Shown one piece after another: positions 30,111 to 53,670 of a DNA stretch of 64,000 nt. The position numbers and the translations under genes were made by a program. This DNA is from Wenjunlia tyrosinilytica. Its GTDB lineage: Bacteria; Actinomycetota; Actinomycetes; Streptomycetales; Streptomycetaceae. The stretch is from NCBI RefSeq assembly GCF_014646055.1, contig NZ_BMMS01000022.1:264-64263 (forward strand). Direction: 5' to 3'. Numbering within the stretch: the first letter of the stretch is position 1; every line of letters begins with the position of its first letter. The notes beneath the pieces are model-generated. The model was given only the letters and a program-made list of their open reading frames with translations, ran no database searches and was not told the DNA's origin.

Positions 30111-30853
30111 GCGGCATCACCCTCCAGCAACTCCGCTAGGTCCCCGACCACGATGTCCGCACCGTGTTTGCGCAAGCCCTCGGCCTGCCCCACCCGGTCG
30201 ACACCGACGACGTGGCCGAAGCCGCCCGCCCGGCCCGCCTCCATTCCCGCGAGAGCGTCCTCGAAGACGGCCGCCTCACCGGCGCCGACGCGGAGTTCGC
30301 GCGCGGCCTCCAGGAAGGTGTCGGGGTGGGGCTTGCCGGGGAGCTCGCGCTCGGCCGCGACGACGCCGTCGATGCGGACCTCGAAAAGGTGCTCGATGCC
30401 CGCGGCGATCAGGACGTCGCGGCAGTTGGCGCTCGAGGAGACCACGGCGGTTCTCAGCCCGGCCGCCCGCACCGCCTCGACGAAGCGGACGGATCCGGGG
30501 TAGACCGCGACCCCCTGCTCGCGGATCTTCTCCAGGACGAGGGCGTTCTTGCGGTTGCCGAGGCCGTGCACGGTGTCCTTCTCGGGCGGGTCGTCCTCCG
30601 CTCCCTCGGGAAGCTCGATGCCGCGCGAGGCGAGGAAGGAGCGCACCCCGTCGGCCCGGGGGAGCCCGTCCACGTACTCGTCGTAGTCGTGCGCGGAGTC
30701 GAACGGGCGGAAGCCGTCGCCGTCACGGCGCCGCAGGAATGCGTCGAACGTCTCCTTCCACGCGGCCGCGTGCACGACCGCCGTCCTGGTCAGGACGCCG
30801 TCGAGGTCGAACAGGCAGGCCCGAACAACGTCCGGGAGCTTGAGCTTCGTCAT
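30107..30853 (-). CDS. Beta-phosphoglucomutase family HAD enzyme
   Basis: 248 residues; ATG 30853 is chosen since ACLFDLDGVLTRTAVVHAAAW then falls near residue 12, as normal. The nucleophile and acid Asp are in FDLDGVLT, the cap follows, VVSSSANCRDVL is motif II and KPHPDTFLEAA with FEDALAGMEAG are motifs III and IV. Converts beta-glucose 1-phosphate to glucose 6-phosphate. It is first in the two-gene unit with the GH65 phosphorylase, the normal partner for this enzyme. Confidence 0.93.
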   Translation of the reverse strand: MTKLKLPDVVRACLFDLDGVLTRTAVVHAAAWKETFDAFLRRRDGDGFRPFDSAHDYDEYVDGLPRADGVRSFLASRGIELPEGAEDDPPEKDTVHGLGNRKNALVLEKIREQGVAVYPGSVRFVEAVRAAGLRTAVVSSSANCRDVLIAAGIEHLFEVRIDGVVAAERELPGKPHPDTFLEAARELRVGAGEAAVFEDALAGMEAGRAGGFGHVVGVDRVGQAEGLRKHGADIVVGDLAELLEGDAA

Positions 30854-31181
30854 GGGTCGCTTGTCCCCGCCGGGCACGGGGTGCATGCCTGCGCGCCGCC
30901 GCATCTCGCTCGTGCGGCGGCCGGGTGGCGGTCATGTCCCGCACGAGGAGGCCGGTTCGCGGCCCTCGCCCGGCGCAACGGCGGGCCGCGGGGCGAGCCG
31001 GGCCCGCCCGGCGGCGCGGGGAGCGAAACGAGCGGGGCGTTCGCTGGTGTTTCGCGGTACTTCGCGTCCGTGGGTTTGCCCAATGCCCTTGTGCGGAGCA
31101 GATCCATCTGGGCTACTTGTGGGGTTGCCCGCCGGAAAGCGTAGGCGGAAGGCCGAGGAACGCAGCGGAAGGATCTGCCCG
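30854..31181 (+). promoter_or_regulatory. Long structured leader of the Rpf-type gene
   Basis: 328 bases, rich in inverted repeats (for example GCCCGCCGG-AAAGCGTA-GGCGG near 31130-31155), with no gene. In streptomycetes rpf-type cell-wall hydrolase genes are often preceded by a cyclic-di-AMP (ydaO) riboswitch; the length and position fit, but conserved ydaO boxes were not recognised, so this is only a candidate. The left part also holds the promoter of the GH65 unit. Confidence 0.3.
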
Positions 31182-32420
31182 ATGCCCGCGCGAGGACGTC
31201 ACCGTCGCCCCCAGCAGCCCAGTCAGTTATCACGGATGTCCGTCGCGGTCACCGCGTCGTCGGCGGGCATAGCCGTGCCGTTGCTCGGCGCCACCGGCGC
31301 GAGCGCGGCGGCACCCGACGTCTGGGACAAGGTCGCCAAGTGCGAGAGCAGCGGCAACTGGGAGAGCAACACCGGCAATGGCTACTTCGGCGGCCTCCAG
31401 TTCACCCCGAGCACCTGGAAGGCGTACGGCGGCACCGTGTACGCCCGGCGGGCGGACCTGGCGACCAAGCGGCAACAGATTGCCGTCGCGGAGAAGGTCC
31501 TGGAAGGAAGCGGTCCCTCGGCCTGGCCGGTCTGCTCGCAGCGGGCCGGGCTGACCCGTGCCTCGGGCGCGGCGAGCCATGGTCAGGGCGCGAGCGCGTC
31601 CTCGTCCGCGGGAAGCGCTTCCGGACACGGGAGCGCTTCCGGTCATGAAAGCGCCTCGGATCATGAACGCGCCTCCGGTCACGACCACCAGGACCATGAG
31701 CGGGAGGCGGCGAAGGCGCGCCGCTCGACGGGGAACACGGCCGGCTCGTACAAGGTCGTCGGCGGGGACACGCTCAGCGGTATCGCCGACGAGCACCGCG
31801 TGGCGGGCGGGTGGGAGCGGCTGTACGCCGCCAACCGCCAGGTCGTCGGAACCGACCCCGACCTGATCCACCCCGGCCAGGAACTCGCTCTTCCCCGCGG
31901 CTACCGTCCCGCCCGGCCCGCACCGCACCCGCACCCGGCCAAGCCGAAGCCCAGGCCCTCGGCGCCGAAGCCGAAGCACCACACCCCGGCGCACCCGTCG
32001 ACGCAGACGCACGCCGCCTTTGTGAGCCCCGTTCAGCACTACTCCCTGAGCACCGGCTACGGCGTCCCGGGGCCCCTGTGGGCGAGCGGGCACCACACCG
32101 GCCAGGACTTCGCCGTGCCGATCGGCACCTCCGTCAAGGCCGTCACCTCGGGCACCGTGGTGGCCGCGGGATGGGGCGGCGCCTACGGCTACCAGGTCGT
32201 CATCCGCCATCACGACGGCATGTACAGCCAGTACGCCCATCTGTCCTCGGTGACCGTGCGGGTCGGCCGGGCCGTCTCCGGGGGAGTGCAGATCGGCAGG
32301 TCGGGGGCGACCGGGAATGTGACCGGACCCCATCTGCACTTCGAGGTGCGCACCGGCCCCGGCTATGGCTCCGACGTCAGCCCCGCCGCCTATCTGCGGC
32401 GCCACGGCGTGCGCATCTGA
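31182..32420 (+). CDS. Secreted Rpf-LysM-M23 cell-wall enzyme
   Basis: 412 residues from ATG 31182 with GGAAGGA upstream. Signal peptide ending ATGASA; then a resuscitation-promoting-factor/transglycosylase domain (VWDKVAKCESSGNW, the Glu being catalytic, with GGLQFTPSTWKAYGG). A flexible Ser/Gly/His/Asp-rich linker (residues about 125-180) leads to one LysM domain (VVGGDTLSGIADEH) that binds peptidoglycan, another Pro/His/Lys linker, and an M23 peptidase domain with zinc ligands in GHHTGQDF and HLHFEV. It could cleave both glycan strands and peptide cross-links. Such enzymes act in germination and growth. A minisatellite follows directly. Confidence 0.94.
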   Translation: MPARGRHRRPQQPSQLSRMSVAVTASSAGIAVPLLGATGASAAAPDVWDKVAKCESSGNWESNTGNGYFGGLQFTPSTWKAYGGTVYARRADLATKRQQIAVAEKVLEGSGPSAWPVCSQRAGLTRASGAASHGQGASASSSAGSASGHGSASGHESASDHERASGHDHQDHEREAAKARRSTGNTAGSYKVVGGDTLSGIADEHRVAGGWERLYAANRQVVGTDPDLIHPGQELALPRGYRPARPAPHPHPAKPKPRPSAPKPKHHTPAHPSTQTHAAFVSPVQHYSLSTGYGVPGPLWASGHHTGQDFAVPIGTSVKAVTSGTVVAAGWGGAYGYQVVIRHHDGMYSQYAHLSSVTVRVGRAVSGGVQIGRSGATGNVTGPHLHFEVRTGPGYGSDVSPAAYLRRHGVRI

Positions 32421-36929: not shown

Positions 36930-39900
36930 ATGACCGTCGTCGACGAGTTCGAGACCCTGCTCGGCCCCCTGCGGGAGGCGGCAGAGGCATCCCTCGCGGC
37001 GCCGGCCGTCTTCTCGGCGGGCGCGCCCGCGGCCGAGCGCACCCTGCTCGACATCCTGCGCGAGACCGCCCGCCGCCACCCCAACGCCCCGGCCGTCGAC
37101 GACGGCGGCACGGTGCTCACCTACCGCGCCCTGCTCGCCGAGGTCGACGCGCTGCGGAGCGAACTGGCCGCGCGGGGGATCGGCGTCGGCGACCGCGTGG
37201 GCGTCCGGGTGCCTTCGGGCACGGTCGACCTCCATGTCTGCGTCCTCGCCGCGCTGGCGGCAGGGGCGGCCTATGTCCCGGTCGACGCCGAGGACCCGGA
37301 CGAGCGCGCCGACCTGGTCTTCTCCGAGGCCGCGGTGAGCGCCGTCCTCGGCGCCCACCGCGAGCTCGAACTGTGCGGAACACCCTCGGGAACGGCCGGT
37401 GAGCCCGGCCCCGGCGACGACGCCTGGATCATCTTCACCTCCGGGTCGACCGGCAGGCCCAAAGGCGTGGCTGTCACCCACCGCAGCGCCGCGGCCTTCG
37501 TCGACGCCGAGGCCCGGCTGTTCCTGACGGAGGAGCCCATCGGCCCCGGCGACCGGGTCCTCGCCGGCCTGTCCGTCGCCTTCGACGCCTCGTGCGAGGA
37601 GATGTGGCTGGCCTGGCGGCACGGCGCCTGCCTCGTGCCCGCACCCCGCTCGCTGGTGCGCACCGGCCTCGACCTCGGCCCCTGGCTGGTCCAGCAGGGG
37701 ATCACCGTCGTCTCCACGGTGCCGACCCTGGCGTCCCTGTGGCCGGCCCAGGCCCTGGACGACGTGCGGCTGCTGATCTTCGGCGGTGAGGCCTGCCCGC
37801 CGGAGCTGGCCGAGCGGATGGCCGTCGAGGGACGCGAGGTCTGGAACACCTACGGCCCGACCGAGGCGACCGTTGTCGCCTGCGCCGCCCAGTTGACCGG
37901 TGAGGGCCCGGTCCGCATCGGGCTGCCCCTCGACGGCTGGGAGCTGGCGGTGGTGGACCCCCGGGGCGAGGTCGTGCCCATGGGGGAGACCGGTGAGCTG
38001 GTCATCGGCGGCGTGGGACTGGCCAGGTACCTCGATCGGAGCAAGGACCGCGAGAAGTACGCTCCCCTGCCGGTGCTCGGCTGGGACCGGGCGTACCGCA
38101 GCGGCGACCTGGTGCGGGCCGAGGAGGCCGGTCTGCTGTTCGTCGGCCGGGCGGACGAGCAGGTCAAGCTGGGTGGACGCCGGATCGAGCTCGGCGAGGT
38201 GGATGCAGCGCTTCAGGCGCTGCCGGATGTCGCGGGGGCGGCCGCCGCGGTGCGGACGACCAGGAGCGGCCACCAGGTCCTCGTCGGCTACGTGGTCGGC
38301 GCCGCCGACGGCGGTTTCGACCCCGCGCAGGCGCTGGACCGGCTGCGGGAAGCGCTGCCCGCCGCGCTGGTACCGCTTCTCGCGCAGGTGGACGACCTGC
38401 CCACCCGCACCTCCGGCAAGGTCGACCGCGCCGCGCTGCCCTGGCCGCTGCCCTCGGCGGACAAGGCCGAGCGGGCCGTCCGGCTCGACGGCACGCAGGC
38501 ATGGCTGGCCGAGCAGTGGACCGAGGTGCTGGGCACCTCGGTGGGCTCGGCCGACGCCGACTTCTTCGCCCACGGCGGTGGCAGCCTCGCCGCGGCGCAG
38601 CTCGTCACCTTGATCAGGAAGCGCTACCCGAGCGCGTCCGTCGGCGATGTCTACCAGACCCGCACGCTCGCGGCCCTGGCCGCGGCACTCGACGCCTTCG
38701 ACGGCGAGGAGGCGACCTCCCGCCAGGTGCGGCCCACGCCACGCGGCGCCGGGGTCGTCCAGGCGCTGCTGATGCTGCCGCTGATGACGGTGACCGCCCT
38801 GCGCTGGAGTGTGGCGCTCGCCGCGATGAACAACGTTCTCGCCCTGACCGGCTCCTACCCGTGGGCCCCCGCCGTGTCGTGGTGGTGGGTCCTGCTCGGC
38901 TGGCTGGTCTTCTTCAGCCCCGCCGGCCGGGTGGGCATCGCCGCCGGAGGCGCCCGGCTCCTGCTCAGGGGGCTCAGGCCCGGTACATATCCGCGCGGAG
39001 GCGGCGTCCACCTGCGACTGTGGGCCGCGGAGCGCCTGGCCGCGATCAGCGGCGCGACGAGTCTGACCGGCTCCTGGCTCACCCACTACGCCAGGGCGCT
39101 CGGAGCCAAGGTCGGCGAGGGCGTGGACCTGCACTCCCTGCCGCCGGTCACCGGCATGCTCAAACTCGGCCGCGGCAGCGCCGTCGAGCCCGAGGTCGAC
39201 CTGTCCGGGCACTGGCTGGACGGTGACCTCCTGCACATCGGCAGGATCAGGATCGGCGCGGGCGCCAGGGTGGGCGCACGCGGCACGCTCCTGCCCGGCG
39301 CGCGGATCGGCAAGCGCGCCACCGTCGCACCCGGCTCCGCGGTGACCGGCTCGGTGCCCGCGGGCCGCCACTGGGCGGGGGTCCCGGCCACCCGCTCCGG
39401 CAAGGCGGGCCACCGCCGGCCGCAGGAGCGCCCGGCACGTTCACGCCTGTGGTCGTTCCTGTACGGCCTCACCTCGCTCGCGCTCGTCCTCCTGCCGGTC
39501 GCCGCGGCCCTGCCAGGCATCCTGGTGGCGGGGCTGTTCCTGCGCGGCGCGAGCACGCCGGGATCGGCGCTCGCCGGCGCCCTGCTCGCGGTGCCGGCGG
39601 CCACGGCGGTCTCGCTGCTGGCGTACGCGGCTCTCGTGCTGGGCGGCGTACGGGTGCTCGGTGTGGGCATGTGCGAGGGCCACCACCCCGTTCATGGGCG
39701 TGTCGCCCTGCAGGCGTGGGCGACCGAGCGGCTGATGAGCAACGCCAGGGTGGTGCTCTTCCCCCTGTACGCCAGCTTGTTCACCCCGGTGTGGCTGCGC
39801 GCTCTCGGCATGAGGGTCGGGCGCGGTGTGGAGGCGTCGACGGTGCTCGCGCTGCCCTCGATGACCACGGTCGGCGACGGTGCTTTCCTCGCCGACGACA

Positions 39901-40865
39901 CCATGGTCGCCTCCTACGAACTCGGCGGCGGCTGGATGCGGATCGCCGAGGCCCGGATCGGCAAGAAAGCGTTCCTCGGCAACTCGGGCATGACCGCGCC
40001 CGGCCGCTCGGTGCCCAACCGCGGCCTGGTCGGTGTGCTGTCCGCGACGCCCAAGCGTGCCAAGGCGGGCAGCTCATGGCTGGGCATGCCCCCCATGAAA
40101 CTGCCCCGGTCGGCGCACAAGGGCGATCGCAGCCGAACCTTCGCGCCGTCCCGTCGGCTGAAGGCGGCGCGCGCCGCCGTCGAGCTGTGCCGGATCGTTC
40201 CGGTGATGTGCGCCGTCGCGCTCGCCGTGCTGGTACTCGCCGCCTTCGAGGCGCTCACGGCCCGGATCGGCCCGGGCCTCGGGGCCCTGTGCGGCTCGGT
40301 GGTTCTGCTCGCCGCCGGCGTGGCGGCCTGCGCTGTCGCCATTGGCGCCAAATGGCTGCTGGTGGGCCGGTTCCGGGCGATCGAGCGCCCACTGTGGAGC
40401 TCCTTCGTCTGGCGCAACGAGCTTGCCGACACCTTCGTCGAGACGCTCGCGGTGCCCTGGCTGATCGCGGCCGTGGACGGCACCCCGCTGATGAATCTGT
40501 GGCTGCGCGGCCTCGGCGCCCGGATCGGGCGGGGCGTATGGTGCGAGAGCCACTGGCTGCCCGAGGCCGACCTGGTCAGGATCGGTGACGGGGCCAGTGT
40601 CAACCGCGGCTGTGTGGTGCAGACGCACCTGTTCCACGATCGGATCATGCGTATGGACGAGGTCACCCTCGAGGAAGGGGCGACGCTGGGCCCGCACGCG
40701 ATCGTTCTGCCCGGCGCGACCATCGGCGAGCGGACTACGGTCGGTCCCGCGTCGCTGGTGATGGGCGGCGAGAGCGTGCCCGCGGGCACCCGCTGGCTCG
40801 GCAATCCCATCGCCGCCTGGCAGACGGAGGGGACCCGGCAGACGGAAGGGGCCCGGCGAGGGTGA
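36930..40865 (+). CDS. Pls/PosA-family non-ribosomal peptide synthetase (poly-amino-acid synthetase)
   Basis: 1311 residues; ATG 36930 has GGAGG five bases ahead. The adenylation domain (about 50-530) shows WIIFTSGSTGRPKG at 166-179, FDASCEEM at 218, NTYGPTEAT at 306 and TSGK with Lys 497. The thiolation domain carries the phosphopantetheine Ser 552 in HGGGSLAAAQ. There is no classical condensation or thioesterase domain; instead six membrane helices in pairs (about 608-670, 841-905, 1085-1140) separate three related left-handed beta-helix-like domains, exactly the layout of epsilon-poly-L-lysine synthetase, which has 1319 residues. The aligned binding pocket reads D-A-E-S-I-G-T-V-V-K, resembling lysine-activating domains. 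It is a membrane enzyme that should polymerise one basic amino acid through isopeptide or peptide bonds. The next gene, an M1 peptidase, overlaps it by four bases. Confidence 0.95.
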   Translation: MTVVDEFETLLGPLREAAEASLAAPAVFSAGAPAAERTLLDILRETARRHPNAPAVDDGGTVLTYRALLAEVDALRSELAARGIGVGDRVGVRVPSGTVDLHVCVLAALAAGAAYVPVDAEDPDERADLVFSEAAVSAVLGAHRELELCGTPSGTAGEPGPGDDAWIIFTSGSTGRPKGVAVTHRSAAAFVDAEARLFLTEEPIGPGDRVLAGLSVAFDASCEEMWLAWRHGACLVPAPRSLVRTGLDLGPWLVQQGITVVSTVPTLASLWPAQALDDVRLLIFGGEACPPELAERMAVEGREVWNTYGPTEATVVACAAQLTGEGPVRIGLPLDGWELAVVDPRGEVVPMGETGELVIGGVGLARYLDRSKDREKYAPLPVLGWDRAYRSGDLVRAEEAGLLFVGRADEQVKLGGRRIELGEVDAALQALPDVAGAAAAVRTTRSGHQVLVGYVVGAADGGFDPAQALDRLREALPAALVPLLAQVDDLPTRTSGKVDRAALPWPLPSADKAERAVRLDGTQAWLAEQWTEVLGTSVGSADADFFAHGGGSLAAAQLVTLIRKRYPSASVGDVYQTRTLAALAAALDAFDGEEATSRQVRPTPRGAGVVQALLMLPLMTVTALRWSVALAAMNNVLALTGSYPWAPAVSWWWVLLGWLVFFSPAGRVGIAAGGARLLLRGLRPGTYPRGGGVHLRLWAAERLAAISGATSLTGSWLTHYARALGAKVGEGVDLHSLPPVTGMLKLGRGSAVEPEVDLSGHWLDGDLLHIGRIRIGAGARVGARGTLLPGARIGKRATVAPGSAVTGSVPAGRHWAGVPATRSGKAGHRRPQERPARSRLWSFLYGLTSLALVLLPVAAALPGILVAGLFLRGASTPGSALAGALLAVPAATAVSLLAYAALVLGGVRVLGVGMCEGHHPVHGRVALQAWATERLMSNARVVLFPLYASLFTPVWLRALGMRVGRGVEASTVLALPSMTTVGDGAFLADDTMVASYELGGGWMRIAEARIGKKAFLGNSGMTAPGRSVPNRGLVGVLSATPKRAKAGSSWLGMPPMKLPRSAHKGDRSRTFAPSRRLKAARAAVELCRIVPVMCAVALAVLVLAAFEALTARIGPGLGALCGSVVLLAAGVAACAVAIGAKWLLVGRFRAIERPLWSSFVWRNELADTFVETLAVPWLIAAVDGTPLMNLWLRGLGARIGRGVWCESHWLPEADLVRIGDGASVNRGCVVQTHLFHDRIMRMDEVTLEEGATLGPHAIVLPGATIGERTTVGPASLVMGGESVPAGTRWLGNPIAAWQTEGTRQTEGARRG

Positions 40866-42238
40866 GCGGTGTGAAGAACGGGCGCGCACGGACCGGTGCG
40901 CGCCCCGGCGCCGATACCTCCACCGACCCCTACTTCCCGCGCCACGGCAACGGCGGCTACCGCGTGGCCCACTACGATCTCGAGCTCGACTACCGGCCCA
41001 GCAGCGGCAGGCTCTCCGGCAGGGCGAAGATCTCGGCCACCGCCGAGCACGCGCTGTCGGGGTTCAGCCTCGACCTCGGTGAATTCCGCCTGGACCGGGT
41101 GCTGGTGAACGGCAGACGGCCCGCCCGCTACACCCACCGGGCGGGCAAACTCAGGGTCCGGCCCGCCGATCCGCTGCCCGCCGGGGCTCCGTTCACCGTG
41201 GAAGTGCGCTATGTCGGCACCCCGCGGCCTATCCGCAGCAAGCACTGGGGCGATCTCGGCTGGGAGGAGCTCGAGGACGGCGCCATCGTGGCCGCCCAGC
41301 CGACCGGCGCGCCCTCGTGGTTCCCGTGCAACGACCACCCGGCCGACAAGGCCGCCTACCGGATCTCGGTGACCGCGCCCTCGCCGTACACCGTGGTCGC
41401 CAACGGGGTCCTGGAGTCGCGCACGACAGGCGCGGGCACGACCACCTGGGTCTACGGGCAGCCCGCCCCTACGTCCACCTATCTCGCCACGGTGCAGATA
41501 GGGCCGTACGAGATGCTGGACGTGGCCGCCGGGTCCCTTTCCCAACCCGTTTCCCAACCCGCTGCCGTTCCGGCGCGCCTGCTCGCCGACTTCGCCCACG
41601 ACTTCGCCCGCCAGCCGGAGATGATGAGCGCGTTCGAGGGCTTCTTCGGCCCCTATCCGTTCCAGGACTACGCGGTGGTCGTGGTGGACGAGGAGCTCGA
41701 GGTCCCGGTCGAGGCCCAGGCCCTGTCGATCTTCGGCGCCAACCACGTCGACGGCCGCCGCGGCTTCGAACGGCTGGTCGCACACGAGTTGGCCCACCAG
41801 TGGTTCGGCAACAGCCTGACCGTCGCCGACTGGCGGTACATCTGGCTCAACGAGGGATTCGCCAAATACGCGGAGTGGCTGTGGTCGCAGGCCTCGGGGG
41901 GCCGCTCGGCGGACGAACTGGCGGCCCGTTCCTGGGCCACCGTGGCCGCCATGCCCCAGGATCTGAGGATCGGCGACCCCGGCGCACGGCACTTGTTCGA
42001 CGACCGTGTGTACGAGCGGGGCGCGCTGACCCTGCATGCCCTGCGGGCGGTGCTCGGTGACGACGCCTTCTTCACCGTCCTGCGGGAGTGGACGGCCCAG
42101 CACCGGCACCGCACGGTGACCACCGCGGAGTTCACCGCCCTGGCACAGCGCCACACCTCGCGGCCGCTGGGGGATCTGTTCCGGTCCTGGCTGCAGGAGA
42201 CCCGGCTTCCGGAGCAGCCCCGCCTCGGAGCCCGCTGA
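40862..42238 (+). CDS. M1-family zinc aminopeptidase, coupled to the synthetase
   Basis: 458 residues from GTG 40862, in a GTGA overlap with the synthetase stop. An N-terminal beta-saddle domain precedes the catalytic domain: HELAH at 308-312 and Glu 331 complete the HExxH-x18-E zinc site, and the later VYERGALTLHALR contains the Tyr that stabilises the transition state. The exopeptidase loop usually reading GxMEN is VPVEAQ here, a departure expected to alter N-terminal substrate recognition. It lacks the large C-terminal HEAT-like domain of full-size aminopeptidase N. In epsilon-poly-lysine producers, zinc aminopeptidases (Pld enzymes) degrade the polymer and protect the cell, so this protein probably trims or degrades the neighbouring product. 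No signal peptide is visible. Confidence 0.93.
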   Translation: MSGVKNGRARTGARPGADTSTDPYFPRHGNGGYRVAHYDLELDYRPSSGRLSGRAKISATAEHALSGFSLDLGEFRLDRVLVNGRRPARYTHRAGKLRVRPADPLPAGAPFTVEVRYVGTPRPIRSKHWGDLGWEELEDGAIVAAQPTGAPSWFPCNDHPADKAAYRISVTAPSPYTVVANGVLESRTTGAGTTTWVYGQPAPTSTYLATVQIGPYEMLDVAAGSLSQPVSQPAAVPARLLADFAHDFARQPEMMSAFEGFFGPYPFQDYAVVVVDEELEVPVEAQALSIFGANHVDGRRGFERLVAHELAHQWFGNSLTVADWRYIWLNEGFAKYAEWLWSQASGGRSADELAARSWATVAAMPQDLRIGDPGARHLFDDRVYERGALTLHALRAVLGDDAFFTVLREWTAQHRHRTVTTAEFTALAQRHTSRPLGDLFRSWLQETRLPEQPRLGAR

Positions 42239-42254: not shown

Positions 42255-42683
42255 TCATCCGAGGGCGGCCCTGAGCGCGAGACGGGTGTTGGACTGGGCG
42301 ACCCCCGCCTCGCGTTTGAGGCGGCGCAGCAGGGCGTCCAGGGCGGGCGCGTCGGCGGCGCGGGCCCGCAGGAGGTAGTCGTGCTCGCCGGTGACGTGCA
42401 CGACCTCGGTGATGCCCGGCAGCCGCAGCACCGCCTTCTCGAACTGCTCTCCGGTCGTGTCGAGCCGCAGGGTCACGTCGATGAAGACCACCAGCCCGGA
42501 GCGGCTGTCGGCGGCGGGGTCGACCAGCGTGGTGAAGCCGCGGATCACCCCGGTGCGGCGCATCTTGCGCACCCGGTCGGCGGCGGCGTTGGCGCTGAGC
42601 CCGACCCGCACGCCGAGGTCCCGGAAGGAGATCCGCGCATCCTCCTGGAGATGACTGAGGATTTCCCTGTCCAGCTCGTCCAT
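42255..42683 (-). CDS. Lrp/AsnC-family regulator
   Basis: 142 residues from ATG 42683. DELDREILSHLQEDARISFRDL with LSANAAADRVRKM is the HTH; the RAM domain follows (GITEVVHVTGEHDYLLRARA). It diverges from a LysE-type exporter 69 bases away and converges on the M1 peptidase. Lrp-type proteins often control adjacent amino-acid exporters (LysG-LysE logic is similar), so this one probably senses lysine or another amino acid and regulates the exporter. Confidence 0.9.
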   Translation of the reverse strand: MDELDREILSHLQEDARISFRDLGVRVGLSANAAADRVRKMRRTGVIRGFTTLVDPAADSRSGLVVFIDVTLRLDTTGEQFEKAVLRLPGITEVVHVTGEHDYLLRARAADAPALDALLRRLKREAGVAQSNTRLALRAALG

Positions 42684-42752
42684 GCCGCGATTGTCGCAGT
42701 CGGCGCCGTAATTCGGCCACAGTAGCGACAGGACCCCGGCCACGGTGGGCGG

Positions 42753-43376
42753 ATGAGTGATTCCTTGACGGCGACGGCCATGGCGGGAGCGGCGGCCGGG
42801 CTGGGCGTGGCGGTGCCGATAGGGGCCGTGGGTGTCCTCCTGGTCCAGGAGGGGATGCGCGGCTGGCGCCGCGCCGCCGCGGCGGCAGCGGCCGTGGCGA
42901 CGGTCGACATGGCCTACGCGGCCGTCGCGACCGCCCTCGGTCCGCTGGTCGCCGATGCGCTGTCGGGGGTGGAGGCATGGGTGCGGCTGGTGTCGGCCGC
43001 CGTCCTGGTGGCGATCGCCGCGCGAGGCCTGGTGGCGTCCCGCCGTTCCACGGACGCGCGGGAGAGGGCCGCGGTGGGTGGGGGCGCCGTACGTACCTTC
43101 GGCCGCTTCGCCGCGCTCACGCTCATCAACCCCACCACCGCCCTGTACTTCGCGGCCCTCACCACCGCGCAGGGAGGCAGCCTCGGGCACGGCGGGGCGG
43201 GGGTGGTCTTTGTGGCCGGAGTCTTCCTCGCGTCGCTGCTGTGGCAGCAGTTCATCGTCGCCGCGGGCGCCTTCGCGGGCACGAGGATCACCGGCGCCGC
43301 CCGGGTGTGGACCTTCCGCGTCGGCTACGGCCTGATCATCGGCTACGCGGCGCTCCTCGCGGTGCCCCTGCCTTGA
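42753..43376 (+). CDS. LysE-family amino-acid exporter
   Basis: 207 residues. Six hydrophobic stretches are visible. The family hallmarks are GLGVAVPIGAVGVLLVQEGM at the first helix and FAALTLINPTTALYFAAL in the fourth, where NP is the conserved pair. The start is ATG 42753. It is divergent from the Lrp regulator, which is the normal arrangement for such exporters. Next to a poly-amino-acid synthetase it might balance cytoplasmic monomer levels; this is inference. Its stop codon lies inside a tandem repeat. Confidence 0.9.
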   Translation: MSDSLTATAMAGAAAGLGVAVPIGAVGVLLVQEGMRGWRRAAAAAAAVATVDMAYAAVATALGPLVADALSGVEAWVRLVSAAVLVAIAARGLVASRRSTDARERAAVGGGAVRTFGRFAALTLINPTTALYFAALTTAQGGSLGHGGAGVVFVAGVFLASLLWQQFIVAAGAFAGTRITGAARVWTFRVGYGLIIGYAALLAVPLP

Positions 43377-50446: not shown

Positions 50447-50664
50447 GGGCAACTCCTTCGGGCCACCACTATGAGGCAGGGGGAGCCGATCGGACGACGC
50501 CCGGGCAAGAGGCAATCGGGTGAATGTCCATCAGATGCCCCACCTGCCGGTTCTCTTGCCTCCTCGGGTGATGAGTTCATGCCCCGTCCGACATGATGGG
50601 GGCGCGAGTCCGAAGGGCCCCGCGGCAGGGGTTGTACGCAGACGAAACGGATGAGGGAGCACGC

Positions 50665-51480
50665 GTGAGCGACAAGCAGGAGATGCCCGGCCTCGACGGA
50701 CTCGACCGGGGCACCGCGCACAACGCCAGGGTGTGGAACCACTGGCTGGGCGGCAAGGACAACTACAGCGTCGACCGCGCCGTCGGCGACCACATCTTCG
50801 GCATGTTCCCCAATATCGTCCATGTCGCCCGGGCCGACCGGGCATTCCTCGGCCGGGTCGTACGCTTCCTGGCCGAGGAGTGCGGGGTCCGCCAGTTCCT
50901 GGACATCGGCACGGGACTGCCGACCGTGGACAACACCCACGAGGTGGCCCAGAGGGTCGCTCCGGAGAGCCGGATCGTCTACGTCGACAACGACCCCCTG
51001 GTGCTGATGCACGCGCGGGCCCTTCTCACCAGTACACCGGAGGGTGCCACCGACTACATCGACGCCGACGCGCGCGAACCCGGGACGATCCTGGAGGCCG
51101 CGTCGGACACCTTGGACTTCGACCGCCCCGTCGCCGTCATGATGCTCGGCATCCTGAACTTCGTCATCGACGACGACCAGGCGCGGGCGACGGTGGCCCG
51201 GCTGATGGACGCCGTGCCCTCCGGAAGCTATCTGGTGCTGACCCATCCCACACTGGAACTCGGGGGCGAGGGCAATGTGGAGGCCATGAAGTTCTGGAAC
51301 GAGAACGCCACCCCTCCCATCACCTCGCGCACCGGCCGGGAGATCGCCCGGTTCCTCGACGGCCTGGACCTGCTGGAGCCGGGCCTGGTCTCGTGCGCCC
51401 ACTGGCGGCCGGAATTCGCCGAGCTCGACGGAACCCCGGCCCAGGTCTCCCAGTACGGGGCAGTGGGAAGGAAGCCCTGA
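50665..51480 (+). CDS. SAM-dependent methyltransferase (DUF574 type), paralogue 2
   Basis: 271 residues from GTG 50665 with GAGGGAGC upstream. RVWNHWLGGKDNYSVDRAVG, QFLDIGTGLPTVDNTHEVAQ, IVYVDNDPLVLMHARALL and ILNFVIDDDQA are the PF04672 landmarks. It is about equally distant from paralogues 1 and 3, so these are not recent tandem duplicates. Convergent on the XRE-DUF5753 gene with a strong hairpin between. Confidence 0.92.
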   Translation: MSDKQEMPGLDGLDRGTAHNARVWNHWLGGKDNYSVDRAVGDHIFGMFPNIVHVARADRAFLGRVVRFLAEECGVRQFLDIGTGLPTVDNTHEVAQRVAPESRIVYVDNDPLVLMHARALLTSTPEGATDYIDADAREPGTILEAASDTLDFDRPVAVMMLGILNFVIDDDQARATVARLMDAVPSGSYLVLTHPTLELGGEGNVEAMKFWNENATPPITSRTGREIARFLDGLDLLEPGLVSCAHWRPEFAELDGTPAQVSQYGAVGRKP

Positions 51481-51521: not shown

Positions 51522-52427
51522 CTACATCTCCTTCAGGATGCGGTGGAGAACCGCCGCGGTCGCCGTCGGCGGTTCGGCCTTGATGCCCAGAACGTTCATC
51601 ACATGCCAGTAGTGCTCCACGTCCGACGGTTTGTCGAGGTAGAGAGCACCGGTGAGCTGCTCGAGGTAGACCACGTCGGGAAGCGTTTGCTGGGGCAACC
51701 GCAGGATGGTGAAGGACCCGCACTCGGCGGCGTGGCCCCCGGAGCGGAACGGGATCACCTGGAGCGTGACGTGACCGAGTTCGGTGGCCTCCATCAGGTG
51801 CCGGACCTGGGCGCGCATCGTCTCCGGGCAGCCGAACGGCCTGCGCAGCACCGCCTCGTCCAGCACGGCCCACAGCTTGGGCGCCTGAGGCCCCCGCAGC
51901 ACCCGCTGGCGGTCCATCCGCAGCCGCACCCGGCGTTCGATCTCGTCGTCGTGGGCGCGCTCATGGCCCTGCCGGATGACCGCCCGGGCGTACTCCGGTG
52001 TCTGGAGCAGGCCGGGAACGAACTGGACCTCGTACACGCGGATGACGTGCGCCGCCCCCTCCAACCCGAGGTACGCCTCGAACCAGCAGGGGAGGACATC
52101 CTTGTAGGGCTGCCACCAGCCGGGGGTGTTGGCCTGCTCGGCCAGAGCGAGCAGTGTCGCCCGCTCTCCGTCGTCCCTCACGCCGTAGAGGCTGAGGAGG
52201 TCGCCGACGTCCCGCTGCTTGAACCCGATCCGCCCCAGCTCCAGGCGGCTGATCTTGGACTCGGAGGCCCGGATGACGTACCCGGCGTCCTCCCGCGTGA
52301 TGCCCCTGGCCTCACGCAGCCGGCGCAGCTGTGCACCCACCAGCATGCGGGACACCGTCGGTCCCGCCTGCTGGAGATCGAGGACATGCGCGTCGGGCAA
52401 CTCGCCCGCCGCACGCGCGGTCACCAT
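51522..52427 (-). CDS. XRE-family HTH regulator with DUF5753
   Basis: 301 residues from ATG 52427. HTH at about residues 30-75 (LGAQLRRLREARGITREDAG then ESKISRLELGR-like motifs), followed by a DUF5753 sensing domain (EVQFVPGLLQTPEYARAVI and GGHAAECGSFTILRLP). In streptomycetes these genes are nearly always followed by a small DUF397 gene; none is present here, since the stop abuts the hairpin. It lies between two DUF574-type methyltransferase genes, a frequent company for this regulator class. Confidence 0.92.
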   Translation of the reverse strand: MVTARAAGELPDAHVLDLQQAGPTVSRMLVGAQLRRLREARGITREDAGYVIRASESKISRLELGRIGFKQRDVGDLLSLYGVRDDGERATLLALAEQANTPGWWQPYKDVLPCWFEAYLGLEGAAHVIRVYEVQFVPGLLQTPEYARAVIRQGHERAHDDEIERRVRLRMDRQRVLRGPQAPKLWAVLDEAVLRRPFGCPETMRAQVRHLMEATELGHVTLQVIPFRSGGHAAECGSFTILRLPQQTLPDVVYLEQLTGALYLDKPSDVEHYWHVMNVLGIKAEPPTATAAVLHRILKEM

Positions 52428-52539: not shown

Positions 52540-53364
52540 TCAGAGCTTGCGCGCGACACCTGCGAAGCAAGCGGCTTCGATGTCGGTCACATTGGCGGCG
52601 TCGTCGGGGTCGTCGGGCCGCCATTTGCTGGACGGGACGATGCCGGGCTCGATGAGCTCCCAGCCGTCGAAGAAACGGGATATCTCCTCGCGTGAGCGGA
52701 AGTGCAGCCGTGTCCCGGCGGAGCGGTAGACCTCCGCGACCCTCTCCATGGCCTCCGGCGCGAACTCCCAGGTGGCATGGCTGATCGCCAGGGTGCTTCC
52801 GGAGGCGAGCGCGCCCTTGAGGTGCTCCACGATCTTGTGGGCGCCCTGGTCGTCGCCCACGAAGTGCAGCAGGGCGTTCAGGCTCAGGGCCACGGGCCGG
52901 TCCAGATCGAGTGTGTCGCGCAGTGCCGCGGTGCTCAGGACGGCTTCGGGGTCGGTGACATCGCCCTCGGCGTAGGCGGTGCGGCCCGACGCGTGACTGC
53001 ACAGGAGCGCCTGGGCATGGGCGAGCACGATGGGGTCGTTGTCGGTGTACACGACCCGGCACTCGGGCGCGACGCGCTGCGCCACCTCGTGGAGGTTGGG
53101 CGAGGTGGGAATGCCCGTGCCGATGTCCAGGAACTGCCGCATGCCGCTGCCCGCGAGGAACCGGGTGGCGCGGTGCATGAACTCACGGTTGGCCCGCGCC
53201 GCAACGAGCGCGGCGGGGAAGACGGCCATGACCCGGCCCACCGCTTCCCGGTCGGCGGTGAAGTTCGTCCTGCCGCCGAGGTAGTAGTCGTACATTCGGG
53301 CCGAGTGGGCACGGTCCAACTGGAGATCCATCACAGCGTCCACCGCGGTCTCGTCCTCGCTCAT
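52540..53364 (-). CDS. SAM-dependent methyltransferase (DUF574 type), paralogue 3
   Basis: 274 residues; ATG 53364 preceded by AAGGAG. ARMYDYYLGGRTNFTADREA, QFLDIGTGIPTSPNLHEVAQ, VVYTDNDPIVLAHAQALL and NALLHFVGDDQG match paralogue 1 closely. The start choice removes an upstream low-complexity stretch. Substrate unknown. Third member of the family in the window. Confidence 0.92.
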   Translation of the reverse strand: MSEDETAVDAVMDLQLDRAHSARMYDYYLGGRTNFTADREAVGRVMAVFPAALVAARANREFMHRATRFLAGSGMRQFLDIGTGIPTSPNLHEVAQRVAPECRVVYTDNDPIVLAHAQALLCSHASGRTAYAEGDVTDPEAVLSTAALRDTLDLDRPVALSLNALLHFVGDDQGAHKIVEHLKGALASGSTLAISHATWEFAPEAMERVAEVYRSAGTRLHFRSREEISRFFDGWELIEPGIVPSSKWRPDDPDDAANVTDIEAACFAGVARKL

Positions 53365-53670
53365 CCTTGCTCTCCTTCGACGGTCGTCCGTGGCGTCCGA
53401 TCCCGAACCGCCCGTGCGGAAGCGCTGGTTCAGCAATGCCCGCACCGAGTGTCCAAGATTGAGTTGCCACACGAGTAATCACATCATTACGCTCTGACGT
53501 ACTCCGCGTCGCCTCCAGTAGATGCCGTGGGTCGCGGCGTACGGCACCGGCCTGCGAAGAGACAGGACACTTGTGACGATCGAAGTGCGGACCCCTGCGG
53601 ATCCACGGGACGCCCTGCGCGTGTTATGGGCCCGTACCGCGCCGCCCTGCCGGGCGACGGGGGGCGAGCG

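Follow-up and report, generated by a model that had tools for sequence, protein, structure and literature searches.

A predicted epsilon-poly-L-lysine synthetase and a translationally coupled, leaderless M1 aminopeptidase in Wenjunlia tyrosinilytica

The 64,000-nt stretch of Wenjunlia tyrosinilytica DNA analysed here (the window, to which all positions refer) carries on its plus strand, at 36930-42238, a pls gene of the Pls/PosA family and a downstream gene for an M1 aminopeptidase, the two forming a compact, translationally coupled two-gene unit. This feature is very probably a pls-pldII operon that makes the antimicrobial polymer epsilon-poly-L-lysine, with the coupled peptidase hydrolysing the polymer in the cytosol. 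The polymerisation of lysine and the hydrolysis of the polymer are taken from papers on relatives, while the product in the strain and the cytosolic role of the peptidase are inferred.

The first gene (36930-40865) encodes a cationic homopoly(amino acid) synthetase of the Pls/PosA family. Its frame is open from 36642, and the ATG at 36930, which is preceded by GGAGGG and agrees with relatives (L041, for example, aligns from residue 1), yields 1311 residues up to the stop at 40865. The NCBI model for the Pls/PosA terminal domain, TIGR02353, matches residues 609-1294 with 776 bits against a cut-off of 423, and no second match over the cut-off was found elsewhere in the W. tyrosinilytica genome; TIGR01733 is matched as well. 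The adenylation domain (37056-38438) is recognised by PF00501 (AMP-binding, residues 43-366), by alignment with the adenylation domain of PDB entry 7wew and by AMP-binding_C (residues 423-497), the last at 21.9 bits and thus slightly under the Pfam cut-off of 24.5. It is followed by a thiolation domain (38502-38690; PF00550, PP-binding, 39.5 bits, residues 525-587), with the carrier serine in GGGSL at residues 549-553. The core motifs SGSTGRPKG, YGPTEAT, RSGD, GKVDR and GGGSL are all intact, and the Pfam matches of the protein include neither a thioesterase nor a condensation domain.

The last 710 residues of the synthetase contain three pairs of membrane segments by hydropathy (near 606-630/654-672, 852-870/885-903 and 1086-1104/1120-1138); an additional peak at 98-116 lies within the adenylation domain and is taken as false. 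For residues 597-1311, an AlphaFold model based on 33 sequences has a mean predicted local distance difference test score (pLDDT) of 85.5 and a predicted template modelling score of 0.87, and consists of long helices interleaved with three beta-helix blocks. Behind the thiolation domain there follow, in order, membrane helices 1 and 2 (38742-38963; residues ~605-640 and ~651-678), the beta-helix-type tandem domain C1 (38982-39404), helices 3 and 4 (39444-39662; residues ~839-871 and ~877-911), C2 (39678-40079), helices 5 and 6 (40152-40361; residues ~1075-1113 and ~1122-1144), and C3 (40383-40799), the last of which also matches the hexapeptide repeat PF00132. An earlier note, made from the letters of this DNA, had described a protein of 1311 residues with adenylation and thiolation domains, six helices alternating with three related domains, and no thioesterase, and Pfam, hydropathy and AlphaFold agree with that description. 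In a Foldseek search with the C-terminal model, which brought up hexapeptide acetyltransferases for the tandem domains, the top matches were serine and galactoside acetyltransferases. The template modelling scores were low (0.09-0.17 by query length among the 50 matches listed), so that the matches support the fold of single parts and not the complete arrangement. In C3, the sequence VQTHLFHDR occupies residues 1230-1238; its QTHLFHDR portion, invariant in all 33 of the C-terminal regions aligned, is a candidate active-site region.

The product of the W. tyrosinilytica enzyme is most likely epsilon-poly-L-lysine, a prediction made because its substrate code equals that of a solved lysine enzyme and because of its position among Pls proteins in the tree described below. 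The best PDB match, 7wew, is the adenylation domain of an epsilon-poly-L-lysine synthase (68% identity over 481 positions), which we take to come from S. albulus. With the code positions placed by the GrsA numbering and read from the alignment with 7wew, the W. tyrosinilytica code is DAESIGTVVK (residues 219, 220, 223, 262, 283, 285, 307, 315, 316 and 497), identical at 10 of 10 positions to that of 7wew and to those of all 80 named relatives. These 80 are the best of at least 591 confirmed relatives and hence the nearest ones only; their best segments are 61-75% identical, and they come from Streptomyces, Kitasatospora, Amycolatopsis, Lentzea, Nocardia, Rhodococcus and others. At position 2 of the code, alanine has been assigned to lysine, methionine to ornithine, and phenylalanine to the enzymes for diaminopropionate (Dap) and diaminobutyrate (Dab) (PMC10522769).

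It might be argued that the synthetase instead makes another cationic homopolymer, of Dab, Dap, ornithine or beta-lysine, since other products are known within the family (PMC10522769, PMC8117764). One such code, DFECLSVVTK with phenylalanine at position 2, occurs in L143, a relative from the same family as W. tyrosinilytica and the only full-length protein with a different code among the matches listed. However, L143 is just 31% identical to the W. tyrosinilytica Pls, the latter has the same code as the solved lysine enzyme, and Dap and Dab synthetases are reported to sit in a different gene context (PMC8117764). A different homopolymer is therefore very unlikely, and the new basic homopolymer that the earlier note had considered finds no support in either the substrate code or the tree.

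The tree, of 53 rows, places the W. tyrosinilytica protein within the Pls proteins: the S. albulus-type clade lies to one side of it, and the Pls of Corynebacterium variabile branches outside. The term S. albulus-type here denotes at least 73% identity to the 7wew domain; all 23 such loci were examined, the best of them at 93% and none apparently S. albulus itself. The gene taken as C. variabile pls was assigned through a published primer stretch, which had a match in one genome out of 242 from the Corynebacterium-like genus. The W. tyrosinilytica Pls groups with those of Streptomyces sp. SPB162, Streptomyces sp. ISL-1 and Actinacidiphila glaucinigra (support 85, not starred). The S. albulus-type proteins and a mostly peptidase-free group together form one clade, with a Shimodaira-Hasegawa-like approximate likelihood ratio of 100, which is nested among the others; a simple two-way split, suggested by a smaller tree that left out C. 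variabile and other families, gave way to this nested clade on wider sampling. Four full-length Pls relatives with the lysine code, L139, L140, L141 and L142 (59-61% identical), group with the S. albulus-type clade, and no M1 peptidase was found near their pls genes in the 10-11.5 kb examined.

The second gene (40862-42238) encodes a pldII-like M1 aminopeptidase of 458 residues, with matches to Peptidase_M1 (PF01433) and Peptidase_M1_N (PF17900). Its GTG start, at 40862, and the TGA stop of pls, which ends at 40865, share the sequence GTGA (40862-40865), an overlap that the earlier note had stated. The motifs PVEAQ (residue 282), HELAH (308), NEGFA (330) and DDRVYERG (380) are recognisable; the zinc ligands, in HELAH and NEGFA, and the tyrosine region, DDRVYERG, are intact, and in the alignment PVEAQ corresponds to the PVENQ stretch of S. 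albulus-type peptidases. As a stand-in for S. albulus PldII, the peptidase of the S. albulus-type locus L133 was used, whose 467 residues fit the reported 1404-bp pldII and which has Thr194 and Glu281. A single-sequence AlphaFold model of the W. tyrosinilytica peptidase was too poor for use (mean pLDDT 41).

Could the M1 protein be a general aminopeptidase that merely shares a transcript with pls and has no role in polymer metabolism? The genome holds eight further M1 matches, and the binding residues of PldII are not kept in this protein. Yet the W. tyrosinilytica peptidase is 49% identical to the PldII of L133, compared with at most 40% for the other M1 proteins of the same genome, and all 80 named loci have an M1 match behind pls (on the same strand, with its start -200 to +1500 nt from the end of pls), which is not the case for the other neighbours tested. 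When the genes around pls in these relatives were searched (flanks of up to 6 kb), the M1 control was recovered in 80 of 80, the S15 and major facilitator superfamily (MFS) genes in one each, and the DUF5954, Lrp and LysE genes in none. Among the genes tested, only pls and M1 stay together, and a general aminopeptidase is, on this evidence, a fairly unlikely reading.

The W. tyrosinilytica peptidase has no export leader. Leaders were scored by hydropathy over the entire in-frame stretch before the conserved body, independently of the start codon and with a cut of our own at 1.3; a twin-arginine motif served as a second mark. For the W. tyrosinilytica protein the hydropathy maximum is -0.9 in the N-terminus and -0.66 over the in-frame upstream stretch, and the M1 frame contains no start codon before 40862. 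No leader was found in any of the 80 named loci (L054 was too short to score), in any of 27 loci of the family, or in any of 10 further loci including C. variabile. These last are the loci with an M1 match among L150-L162; in two of them, L156 and L161, the M1 start is not settled, and the scan, being start-independent, is leader-free for them too. Conversely, 20 of the 23 S. albulus-type loci have a peptidase (the other three have none in the 2.4-3.0 kb behind pls), and all 20 peptidases carry a twin-arginine-like motif followed by a hydrophobic stretch scoring at least 1.34. The peptidase of L144, from the sister group of the S. albulus type, carries both marks as well. The cut separates narrowly, the highest leaderless value being 1.21 (L046) and the lowest S. 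albulus-type value 1.34, and the counts are not independent, as the sequences inside each group are related and some are nearly identical.

The W. tyrosinilytica peptidase thus probably works in the cytosol. This bears directly on the classical self-protection known from S. albulus, in which an M1 enzyme outside the membrane trims the exported polymer: the operon layout is identical, down to the 4-nt overlap (PMC4361855), and the S. albulus enzyme is reported to lie outside the membrane (PMC9223678). However, the W. tyrosinilytica gene offers no in-frame start upstream of 40862, nothing hydrophobic precedes the conserved body of its product, and leaders occur in 0 of 80 named relatives as against 20 of 20 S. 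albulus-type peptidases. Export-based self-protection in W. tyrosinilytica is, by these predictions, unlikely, and any protection by a peptidase without a leader would need to act intracellularly. Where the earlier note had proposed a compact locus for synthesis and self-protection, the compact Pls/M1 unit stands, and self-protection in the published, exported sense is doubtful. Three other M1 proteins of the genome (L167, L168 and L170; 35-40% identical) have hydrophobic N-terminal stretches, as read by eye, so that degradation of polymer on the outside could fall to other M1 enzymes.

By analogy with the relatives studied, a cytosolic pls-pldII system would operate as follows. The adenylation domain would activate L-lysine and load it onto the thiolation domain, and the membrane part, with its three hexapeptide-acyltransferase-like domains and six helices, would join the lysines via their epsilon-amines and pass the chain out. 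Translational coupling would cause the peptidase to be made together with the synthetase. As a zinc aminopeptidase, the M1 enzyme would hydrolyse epsilon-poly-lysine, and, as it is apparently cytosolic, it likely works on polymer inside the cell, where its substrates may be chains that are not exported or that come back in. Epsilon-poly-lysine is reported to be internalised through cell membranes, although the available portion of that paper does not state whether this occurs in producers (PMC9606270); given such internalisation, a cytosolic peptidase would have a substrate even after export.

Taken more broadly, the distribution of leaders tips the balance slightly toward the view that there are two kinds of Pls operon. 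In most of the actinobacteria sampled, a cytosolic coupled peptidase would clear or edit polymer inside the cell, perhaps chains that have come back in, and W. tyrosinilytica would represent this older and commoner kind. Export of PldII, as in S. albulus, would have arisen late, in a single clade to which peptidase-free pls genes belong as well. This split in the partner enzyme of Pls is apparently unreported: no description of it was found in the literature searched, a search whose coverage leaves out many relevant papers, and the word "signal" does not occur in the text of PMC9223678. The leaderless peptidase, common to the relatives examined outside the S. albulus type and its sister group, is a point of specialist interest. 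The model self-protection enzyme, S. albulus PldII, may be atypical. The role of epsilon-poly-lysine for its maker has been called unclear (PMC9606270), and if the usual partner of Pls is cytosolic, the question of this role shifts to polymer inside the cell.

Several points weigh against this interpretation of the W. tyrosinilytica operon. Thr194 and Glu281, described as polymer-binding residues (PMC9223678), are replaced by Val and Gln in the W. tyrosinilytica peptidase, and its activity on the polymer is therefore not assured; as a test for polymer hydrolysis these two positions proved unusable, not being conserved across the relatives. The location of the peptidase was called from hydropathy and a motif, as opposed to a trained signal predictor, and a leaderless export route is conceivable. 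S. albulus PldII is known here through relatives and not by its own sequence, and the S. albulus sequences in the tree are likewise represented by relatives only. The tree includes no characterised Dap or Dab synthetase and has a single row with a Dap/Dab-like code. A very long outgroup branch makes its rooting weak, and the forks next to the W. tyrosinilytica Pls are not starred. Finally, a substrate code predicts the monomer, and neither the linkage nor the chain length.

Pls relatives are widespread beyond the named loci. The terminal-domain family occurs in 105 of 150 genomes of the W. tyrosinilytica family and in 59 of 246 drawn from its class, and a Pls relative is present in 108 of 121 genomes (28 of 31 genera) of another family, several of which have a second copy only 35-37% identical. 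In the genus g9, 166 of 392 genomes have a match to the 7wew domain with an expect value of 1e-150 or better, and 23 reach at least 73% identity. Homologues of Pls have also been described in Nocardia (PMC4035055). No pls was found in the other genome of the W. tyrosinilytica genus (two genomes compared), and the present locus adds a candidate epsilon-poly-lysine producer from this sparsely sampled genus. More distant are L011, L012, L038 and L146, proteins of the Pls terminal-domain family (25-29% identical, 813-1049 residues as extracted) in which the alignment begins only behind the adenylation domain; some g9 genomes hold several open frames of this sort.

Just downstream of the peptidase gene, in the region 42255-43376, an Lrp/AsnC regulator on the minus strand is divergent from a LysE-type translocator (42753-43376). 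A wider cluster including these two was rejected, neither gene being found in any of the 80 relatives within the flanks searched. Elsewhere in the window, an HTH_31/DUF5753 regulator gene on the minus strand (51522-52427) lies between two Methyltransf_19 S-adenosylmethionine methyltransferase genes, one on the plus strand (50593-51480) and one on the minus strand (52540-53472), and a 526-residue frame at 30840-32420 has transglycosylase-like, LysM and M23 peptidase domains and presumably resembles a resuscitation-promoting factor with an added peptidase.

The pairing of pls with an M1 gene is not unusual and has already been published, and the W. tyrosinilytica locus is of a known type, given its precedents in S. 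albulus and C. variabile. Another known system is PosA, the delta-poly-L-ornithine synthetase of Acinetobacter baumannii, which shares the order of adenylation, thiolation and terminal domains. The published PosA model, with three packed left-handed beta-helices and six helices, is resembled by that of the W. tyrosinilytica protein, and PosA C1-C3 are suggested to form one catalytic unit (PMC10522769). However, the PosA code is DMEHNGTVSK, for ornithine, as opposed to DAESIGTVVK, and its C-terminal part is reported to be 20% identical to S. albulus Pls (PMC10522769).

A second is the pls-peptidase operon of C. variabile (PMC8117764), whose synthetase is 58% identical over the full length and whose adjoining M1 is also leaderless. 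Its pls yields epsilon-poly-lysine of 26-35 residues in S. coelicolor, and the polymer was reported as not detected from C. variabile itself or from a C. glutamicum host (PMC8117764). Unlike in W. tyrosinilytica, the chosen start of the peptidase lies about 10 nt past the pls stop, with no overlap, and the peptidase is 43% identical. Three further Pls relatives from the C. variabile genus, L151, L152 and L153 (53-57% identical), have no M1 match in the stretch examined, unlike the presumed C. variabile gene.

In S. albulus, whose Pls makes epsilon-poly-lysine, pls and pldII form one operon with a 4-bp overlap (PMC4361855). The W. tyrosinilytica proteins differ from the S. albulus-type pair of L133, to which the synthetase is 57% and the peptidase 49% identical, and its M1 has none of the twin-arginine-like leader. 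The W. tyrosinilytica operon shares with S. albulus pls-pldII the domain order of the synthetase, the substrate code and the 4-nt overlap with a downstream M1 gene (PMC4361855).

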